NCBI GenBank assembly: GCA_019429125.1
Contig: JAHYJO010000013.1
Location: 1 to 46,275, forward strand
Length of the DNA: 46,275 nucleotides
From: Nanobdellati archaeon
GTDB taxonomy: Archaea > EX4484-52 > GLR71
Direction of reading: 5' to 3'
Positions 11,032 to 12,827 of this stretch are shown here, piece after piece; position 1 is the first letter of the stretch; the number at the start of each line of letters is the position of its first letter. Below the pieces are notes generated by a model. The model had not been told where the DNA came from and made no database searches. It saw only the letters and a program-made list of their open reading frames with translations. The position numbers were made by a program, and so were the translations under genes.

Positions 11032-11296
11032 AATTATTTAACTCTGCTTGGCGTTTTTGTTCACTAGTTAACAATAAATCATTTATTAGTAACAACAACA
11101 ATAGGTTTATTTGTGTGTGAAACTATATAAATGTGTGTTTTTTAGAATGTGAAATTCAATCAATCTTAATATTTGTGATTGCAATTTATTGATTAGTTAT
11201 GCTTAAAACTTAAAGGTATACAGGTCTGTATATCTAAATCTTTTTGAAAAAATGGATCTTTCTTAAAAACATTCCACTACTATTTTGGATAGGCAT

Positions 11297-11355
11297 GTTA
11301 CCTTTGAATGTAACATTTATGCATTTAAGCCTATTTTATCACGGTTGATTGTAAT
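11297..11355. repeat. Palindromic GTTAC-GTAAC repeat, two units, 3' side of ATPase
   Basis: Unit one is GTTACCTTTGAATGTAAC at 11297-11314. Unit two is the weaker ATCACGGTTGATTGTAAT at 11338-11355, overlapping the end of the ATPase pseudogene. They match the three units at 12664-12747 on its other side. The arms GTTAC and GTAAC are reverse complements, as in a dimeric-protein binding site. Confidence 0.75.
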
Positions 11356-12632
11356 AGATATTTCCATAAGGGTATGAATTGTATGTTATCTTTTTCAACT
11401 TCTAAATCTTTTGTTATTAAAATCATCTTTACAGGTTTATCTATAATTTCATTAAAACTTTTTAGTGCTCTTGTTTCACGTTCTGCTATATCATCAGCAT
11501 AGGTTACATTAATTGCAGTGAAACTATTATCTATTTCTTTAATTACAAAATCAACTTCGTGACCTTTTTCATTTTTCCAATAATAACAATCTTTATTTCG
11601 TCTTTTTAATTCTGTCATAACTAAATTCTCTGCAAGTTTCCCTTCATCTTTTGAAAAACTAAATGCAACAGCGTTTCTTAATCCATTGTCAATGCAATAA
11701 ATTTTTGATGGAAGATGTTTTTGTTCCCTAAAAGAATATGAAAAATAATCCATCTTGAAGAATAAGTATGCATCTATAAAATGAGATAAATATTCATTTA
11801 TTGTATCATATGATAAACCTATGGTCTCCCTTGTTTTTCTAAGTGATATAGGTTTTGTTATTTCAGTCATAAACAATTTTGCAAGACCAAGAGCTTTTTG
11901 TATATTTATGTTATGTCTTGTAAGTATATCTTTGAAAAGTATGTCTTCAAAATATTGCTTAAGTATTTTCATCTTGAAATTCTCATCTTTAAGAGTTATT
12001 TCTGGAAATCCCCCTTCTTTTGTGTAACGAGATAAAGTATTAAGTAAATTAATTCTTGTTTTTTCAGTAATTATGCCTTTACTTATCTTTTCTTAATCTA
12101 TTTTTTGACCAATGAAGGTTAAATATTCCTGAAAACTTAAGGGGTACATTTCAAAAGTTATATTTCTTCCAGTAAGGAGTGTACTATATTCTTTTTTTAG
12201 GAGATGTGAGCAGGAGCCCGATACTATGAATTTTTCATTTGAACTTATATCATATTTTTTTCGTATCCAAGATTCCCAACCATCTTTTTTGTGTATTTCA
12301 TCAAAAAATATGTATGCTTTTTGCTGTGGATTAATATTTAAACGGTATGTTTTGTATATATCCTCAATTGAAAATTTTTCAAGAGTCATATCATCAAAAT
12401 TTATAAAAAGTATCTGTTCTGGCTTTATGCCTTTTTTAAATAATCGGGCTATCATCTGATACATCAATGTACTTTTTCCACATCGTCTTATTCCACTTAT
12501 GACTGTCACTTCTTTTATATCAACAGAATCAATAATATCCTTATGTCATTTTCTTTCTATTCCTTTAAGATTATCAATTCTTGATAACTCTTCCCACCAT
12601 GGATTCCATTCTAATAGTGATGTTATGTCCAT
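11331..12632 (-). pseudogene. AAA+ ATPase with DUF4143 domain (COG1373), two internal stops
   Basis: One continuous frame of 433 codons from ATG 12632 is interrupted by TGA at about 12546-12548 and TAA at 12091-12093, with no frameshift. Before the first stop it reads MDITSLLEWNPWWEELSRID. After it come Walker A GIRRCGKST and Walker B YIFFDEIH, then the SGSCSHLL sensor region. The C-terminal DUF4143 part ends in a PDDEXK-like stretch (YYWKNEKGHEVDFVI). Length and order are normal for this archaeal family, which is often mobile and of unclear role. TGA and TAA both serve as normal stops in neighbouring genes, so recoding is unlikely. Confidence 0.88.
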
Positions 12633-12663
12633 ATTATATTATTTTTTGATGAATTATATATGT

Positions 12664-12747
12664 GTTACGGTTGACTGTAACAAATTATATACTTTTGTTA
12701 CGATTGACTGTAACAAATAAGGTCATTTTGTTACGATTGAATATAAC
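12664..12747. repeat. Three palindromic GTTAC-GTAAC repeats at 33-bp spacing
   Basis: Units are GTTACGGTTGACTGTAAC (12664-12681), GTTACGATTGACTGTAAC (12697-12714) and GTTACGATTGAATATAAC (12730-12747). Start-to-start distance is exactly 33 bp both times, near three helical turns. They lie just upstream of the ATPase pseudogene start, where operator sites would sit, and recur on its other side at 11297-11355. Confidence 0.88.
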
Positions 12748-12827
12748 AAACAAGAGAAATAACACTTCTAATATACATTTTATAAAAAATAAAAATTACA
12801 GAGAAAAAAGTACTCTGTATAAAAATA

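Follow-up and report, generated by a model that had tools for sequence, protein, structure and literature searches.

Archaeal Lrp regulators bind palindromes two to three helical turns apart in their own promoters, and one dimer site adjoins the BRE on its upstream side (PMC2995911, PMC4046817). PDC-S01, a candidate defence system described as the fourth most common across prokaryotes (9986 in archaea and 29494 in bacteria), joins an ATPase to a PD-(D/E)XK-type domain, and most PDCs still await validation (PMC12988326). An antiviral function of the PDC-S01 family has candidate status. The window analysed here, a stretch of 46,275 nucleotides from a Nanobdellati archaeon (contig JAHYJO010000013.1), contains a pseudogene of this family preceded by evenly spaced palindromes. 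We propose that this locus belongs, in decayed form, to a widespread class of phased operator arrays of DUF4143 ATPases, which as far as searched is previously unreported: full-text searches of open-access papers gave no description of upstream arrays for DUF4143, COG1373, PF13635 or PDC-S01.

The ATPase frame runs on the minus strand from an ATG at 12632 to a TAG at 11331-11333, and it is interrupted by an in-frame TGA (12546-12548) and an in-frame TAA (12093-12095), which make it a pseudogene as assembled. Both domains are present, namely the AAA_14 P-loop domain (PF13173, E=1.6e-38, positions 12093-12509) and the C-terminal DUF4143 domain (PF13635, E=4.4e-22, positions 11331-11972), and the PADLOC models for PDC-S01 match each half of the protein with E values of ~1e-46. 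The window ATPase is a decayed member of the PDC-S01/DUF4143 family, lacking a single intact frame. HTH Pfam matches fall inside the DUF4143 region, and a confident structure model (pLDDT 91.7) resembles RuvB, Orc1/Cdc6 and STAND proteins.

Table 1. Features of the ATPase locus in the window.
Feature	Position	Strand	Match or basis	Remarks
Proximal putative operator palindrome GTTACGGTTGACTGTAAC	12664..12681		exact GTTACN8GTAAC	centre -40.5 relative to ATPase ATG
Second putative operator palindrome	12697..12714		exact GTTACN8GTAAC	+33 bp, centre -73.5
Third putative operator palindrome	12730..12747		1 mismatch	+33 bp, centre -106.5
TATA-box-like ATATATAA	12654..12661	-		directly after proximal palindrome, ~25 bp before ATG
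AAA_14 + DUF4143 ATPase (PADLOC PDC-S01), pseudogene	11331..12632	-	Pfam, PADLOC, reading frame	
Degenerate palindrome ATCACGGTTGATTGTAAT	11338..11355		4 mismatches relative to GTTACGNTTGACTGTAAC	overlaps last ATPase codons (3' end)
3'-side palindrome GTTACCTTTGAATGTAAC	11297..11314		exact	aligned with palindrome 1 (L207 1291) of the orthologous locus in G005
TATACAGGTCTGTATA element	11217..11232			common to window and G005 locus
Segment missing in orthologous locus of same-genus genome G006	11150..12778			29 bp there versus 1629 bp in the window

Upstream of the ATPase lie three GTTAC-N8-GTAAC palindromes with start-to-start distances of 33 and 33 bp, which bears out what an earlier, sequence-only reading of this DNA had reported. 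That reading had also described two palindromes at the 3' end of the gene. One of them is exact and the other does overlap the coding end, but the latter is degenerate and the two are 41 bp apart, not 33. The exact motif occurs three times in the window against 0.047 expected from base composition. When up to two mismatches are allowed, 11 matches are observed against 15 expected, and since there is no enrichment at this level, significance is restricted to the exact copies and their spacing. Throughout the genome, GTTACNNTTGANTGTAAC at up to one mismatch is found at the window's four sites and at one further site. A near-match at the start of an AlbA_2 gene (G000:C22:50760) was set aside as a lone site for which chance would suffice.

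Since two palindromes of very different sequence, likewise 33 bp apart, accompany a second ATPase in the genome of the window (L010), the upstream regions of DUF4143 ATPases were surveyed in 61 genomes, using a score in which direct and palindromic matches are summed. Paired palindromes with a score of at least 30 were found in 26 of 87 archaeal DUF4143 ATPases, 24 of them at a spacing of 32-34 bp, and in none of 174 dinucleotide-shuffled upstream regions. All but one of the control genes scoring at least 27 at 31-35 bp were either ATPases that the filter had missed or divergent neighbours of an ATPase; a 202-aa gene with a score of 28 (L052), whose contig also has an ATPase, was the exception. 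In a set of 45 archaeal ATPases from named MAGs (Altiarchaeales, Hydrothermarchaeota, Thermoplasmatota, Methanoperedens, Micrarchaeota, Pacearchaeota, Woesearchaeota and others), 32 score at least 27 and 25 of these 32 peak at exactly 33 bp. Archaeal DUF4143 ATPases (PDC-S01) thus commonly have two to three palindromes spaced by 33±1 bp, or about three helical turns, with a detectable array in only ~40% of those tested, a share from which wrong start codons may hide some (as in L087). The idea that the palindromes arose by chance in AT-rich intergenic DNA has on its side the lack of enrichment at two mismatches in the window; in view of the shuffled regions and of the conservation of the motif within ATPase lineages, its probability is virtually negligible.

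The spacing differs between groups. The archaeal family of G060 has a mode of 34-35 bp (L247-L274, L026, L028, L090), with palindrome centres often at -8 and -42, and a subset of Bacteroidota ATPases of 375-400 aa peaks at 32 bp. No array was found in the Bacteroidota DUF4143 type of 475-490 aa; instead, a lone palindrome, TAAGATCA...TGATCTTA, precedes the start codon by ~42 bp in two members (L285, L303). On Bacillota plasmids (L311, L312, L314, L315), a small sample, the best upstream palindrome pairs are 39-40 bp apart in four of four DUF4143 ATPases. The sister DUF234 ATPases of the same genomes show no 33-bp peak, an array being found in only 1 of 22, at 34 bp. Three of them (L227, L236, L237) have paired palindromes 15-16 bp apart near the start codon (L227, for example, has AATTCAGTAACTGAAT), and these may represent a second class of operator in the sister family. 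Intergenic repeats of the GATTTCTGATTTTCAATCAGAAAGCTTCGAATG type lie upstream of a DUF234-type ATPase near 7.5 kb in L016 (G000:C23). One small archaeal genome has five DUF4143 ATPase genes in tandem, all on the same strand (L062, G010:C9:1700-10900), and in a type I restriction system (L309, Treponema saccharophilum pTS1) such a gene separates hsdR from the DNA methyltransferase gene. In L345, a relic ATPase array is separated from an intact DUF4143 ATPase by a nucleotidyltransferase-like gene and a small adjoining gene (394-1303; MNT/HEPN-like by eye), which may form a toxin-antitoxin-type pair.

The arrays keep a fixed register with the promoter. A motif scan of 56 arrays gave 117 upstream sites (within 200 bp) and no downstream site. 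In 47 of 59 arrays, a palindrome centre falls between -51 and -37 relative to the ATG; measured from the centre of this proximal palindrome, TATA-like 8-mers are most frequent at +13 to +16. Family-wide, the TATA box is immediately preceded by the proximal palindrome, which lies in the BRE region, ~43 bp from the ATG. An alignment of 20 related upstream regions (A2) shows the same order, with a palindrome of nearly 30 bp (ACTAAAATTAAACTAYAGTTTAATTTTAGT) occurring twice at 33 bp, followed by the TATA box TTTATATA and the ATG. In the window, the TATA-like element begins 10.5 bp from the centre of the proximal palindrome, and the layout resembles that of Ss-LrpB, with palindromes two to three helical turns apart and a site directly upstream of the BRE/TATA region. 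Judged from sequence, the window palindromes are in operator position and match the family-wide layout, and the reading of the arrays as operators is well supported. The suggestion that they are more than an operator becomes unneeded, given this register with the TATA box. Archaeal activators also bind just upstream of the BRE, and the sign of the regulation is uncertain for this reason.

The sequence of the palindromes follows the lineage of the ATPase. The best similarity between 22-mer palindromes rises with protein identity, from 11.4-11.9 below 40% identity to 15.7 at 50-60% and 18.6 above 75%, and for pairs of ATPases in the same genome it is at chance level (mean 11.3, maximum 15). The nearest relative of the window ATPase that was found (L087, 55-61% identity) belongs to another family, and its array consists of GTTACGATGAACCGTAAC and GTTACGGCATACCGTAAC, both GTTACN8GTAAC, exactly 33 bp apart and with a centre at about -39.5 from the ATG. 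Within 1.35 Mb of compared DNA, the exact motif was found only there, at the window locus and at its counterpart in G005. These patterns bear on the possibility that a host-encoded regulator, Lrp-like or other, reads the arrays and that the ATPase is merely one of its target genes. The match to archaeal Lrp operators, with palindromes two to three turns apart beside the BRE, is what such a regulator would predict. Against it, six unrelated arrays occur in one genome (G033), where each ATPase has its own motif, related ATPases from different genomes, families and phyla have the palindrome sequence in common, and tandem arrays are found mostly at ATPase genes or their relics. One regulator per ATPase would be demanded, travelling along unlinked, and we regard this explanation as unlikely. 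Clustering of the neighbouring genes revealed no conserved neighbour or regulator, no family being present in more than 2 of 45 loci. Because the motif tracks the ATPase lineage and no neighbour gene family is conserved, the ATPase is the simplest reader of the array. Domain-wise and windowed analyses of co-variation with the motif did not single out the winged helix.

An order-wide scan of 34 genomes for tandem copies of three motifs (GTTAC, CGAT and TGAC) supported the co-occurrence of motif and DUF4143 ATPases that the sequence-only reading had proposed to check, most tandem arrays being placed at an ATPase gene or relic. GTTAC arrays were located in five genomes: at the window, at the L087 ATPase, in G011, at the orthologous locus of G005 and in G006:C9, where it stands solo between convergent genes. 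The CGAT array occurs in seven genomes, directly at an ATPase in six and ~280 bp upstream of one in the seventh; an eighth match, G001:C83, is an ATPase array of the TGAC type. Six genomes have the TGAC array, which lies at an ATPase in four; the others are G003 and G023, the latter a weak match with three mismatches near a DUF234-type ATPase. Reversed-pattern controls matched one genome (G019) in the GTTAC scan and none in the CGAT and TGAC scans. Repeats in relatives without any ATPase history, which would speak against the association, do occur in part: no ATPase or ATPase relic adjoins the solo arrays of G005 and G006:C9, whereas the GTTAC array of G011 is followed by an ATPase C-terminal relic ending in VKYVPLWKWLIHK and the TGAC array of G003 by a short one. 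The two relics indicate loss of the ATPase. From these genome comparisons, tandem arrays appear to be tied to ATPases and able to outlive them.

This persistence would also suit an array that is primarily the site of action of the ATPase or its nuclease, comparable to an origin, a centromere or a self-recognition site, with promoter control secondary and related sites on invaders as targets. The likeness of the predicted structure to Orc1/Cdc6 and RuvB could point the same way, as could the PD-(D/E)XK-type domain to which the AAA domain of PDC-S01 is joined (PMC12988326). The fixed distance of the arrays to the TATA box and the ATG argues against this role, as does a search of 2.9 million viral contigs, in which three array motifs had no real match (the sole match was a GC-rich, GTTAC-rich stretch), and we consider it quite unlikely.

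The occurrence of palindromes on both sides of the ATPase had suggested that they are the boundaries of a mobile cassette carrying it. In favour of this idea, the presence of the ATPase is patchy within the genus, the solo array of G005 is located at the same locus, and the locus is empty in G006, where the genes on either side adjoin with ~29 bp at the breakpoints and no ATPase between them. But the palindromes are internal to the segment defined by this comparison, at distances of 147 bp and 31 bp from its edges (11150 and 12778), and neither a target-site duplication nor an integrase was found at the inserted segment. Since no downstream copies occur at the 56 other arrays and the sites keep the promoter register, boundary repeats are a very improbable explanation, and the proposal was rejected. 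The motif is tied to DUF4143 ATPases, and the companion proposal, that the sites are bound by the ATPase or a partner, was the better of the two ideas, the binding itself being a prediction.

The G005 locus offers a parallel to the 3' palindromes. It has no ATPase, and contains a palindrome pair at 33 bp, the TATACAGGTCTGTATA element and a truncated gene for an HATPase_c_4 and winged-helix protein (L207 545-1190, G005:C56), which lies where the window has the ATPase; the TATACAGGTCTGTATA element is located between the palindrome pair and this gene. Because positions 11217-11355 of the window align with this structure, the 3' pair represents an element of the locus that is older or has recombined. 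Recombination between the two sets of repeats may possibly have removed the ATPase in G005. A candidate ATPase relic just past the 3' pair of the window was deemed unreal, as it was a weak match of 30 aa (E=0.001) obtained with lenient settings.

We consider it probable that the arrays are cognate, cooperatively bound autoregulatory operators of the ATPase gene, read by the winged helix of the ATPase itself. Binding by the ATPase and negative autoregulation are the likely, predicted steps. The winged helix of the DUF4143 region would place an ATPase dimer on each palindrome, and binding would be cooperative along one face of the DNA. The bound ATPase would repress its own promoter, possibly with dual regulation by concentration, and a potentially harmful single-gene defence protein could thereby be kept low until a trigger removes it from the DNA. 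In the window, the gene has decayed while the array persists, and the 3' pair would be the leftover of an earlier arrangement at a turnover-prone locus. A further proposal, in which we place little confidence, sees in each PDC-S01 ATPase a sensor that binds specific DNA sequences, its operator mirroring a site sought on invaders or on itself. If so, the DNA-bound ATPase would repress its gene until drawn off to foreign DNA, and the array could be read as a recognition code, specific to the lineage, for a candidate defence family that is among the commonest uncharacterised ones.

Under the operator reading, the array names a short DNA duplex as the candidate recognition sequence of each ATPase, and it suggests that the ATPase controls its own dose. 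The array alone lets ATPase genes and deleted relics be found, and the spacing differences between groups (32, 33 and 34-35 bp) provide a natural series for helical phasing across lineages.

Among known systems, PDC-S01 (AAA_14 + DUF4143; COG1373) is matched strongly, through its own and Pfam models, by the halves of the window protein and by its relatives, although the window copy is a pseudogene. Like autoregulated defence and toxin-antitoxin operators, the palindromes cover the promoter of a potentially harmful gene, but no small repressor or antitoxin gene is linked to it here. The DUF234/ATPase_2 archaeal ATPases are sister AAA ATPases of the same genomes, some with start-codon palindromes (three at the 15-16-bp spacing), from which the DUF4143 arrays are distinguished by their 33-bp peak. 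Compared with Lrp operators, the gene here encodes an AAA ATPase with no Lrp protein at the locus, the motif varies by ATPase lineage and binding is predicted; what the arrays have in common with Ss-LrpB boxes 1-3 and the Ptr2 and LysM sites is several palindromes in the gene's own control region, one of them by the BRE.
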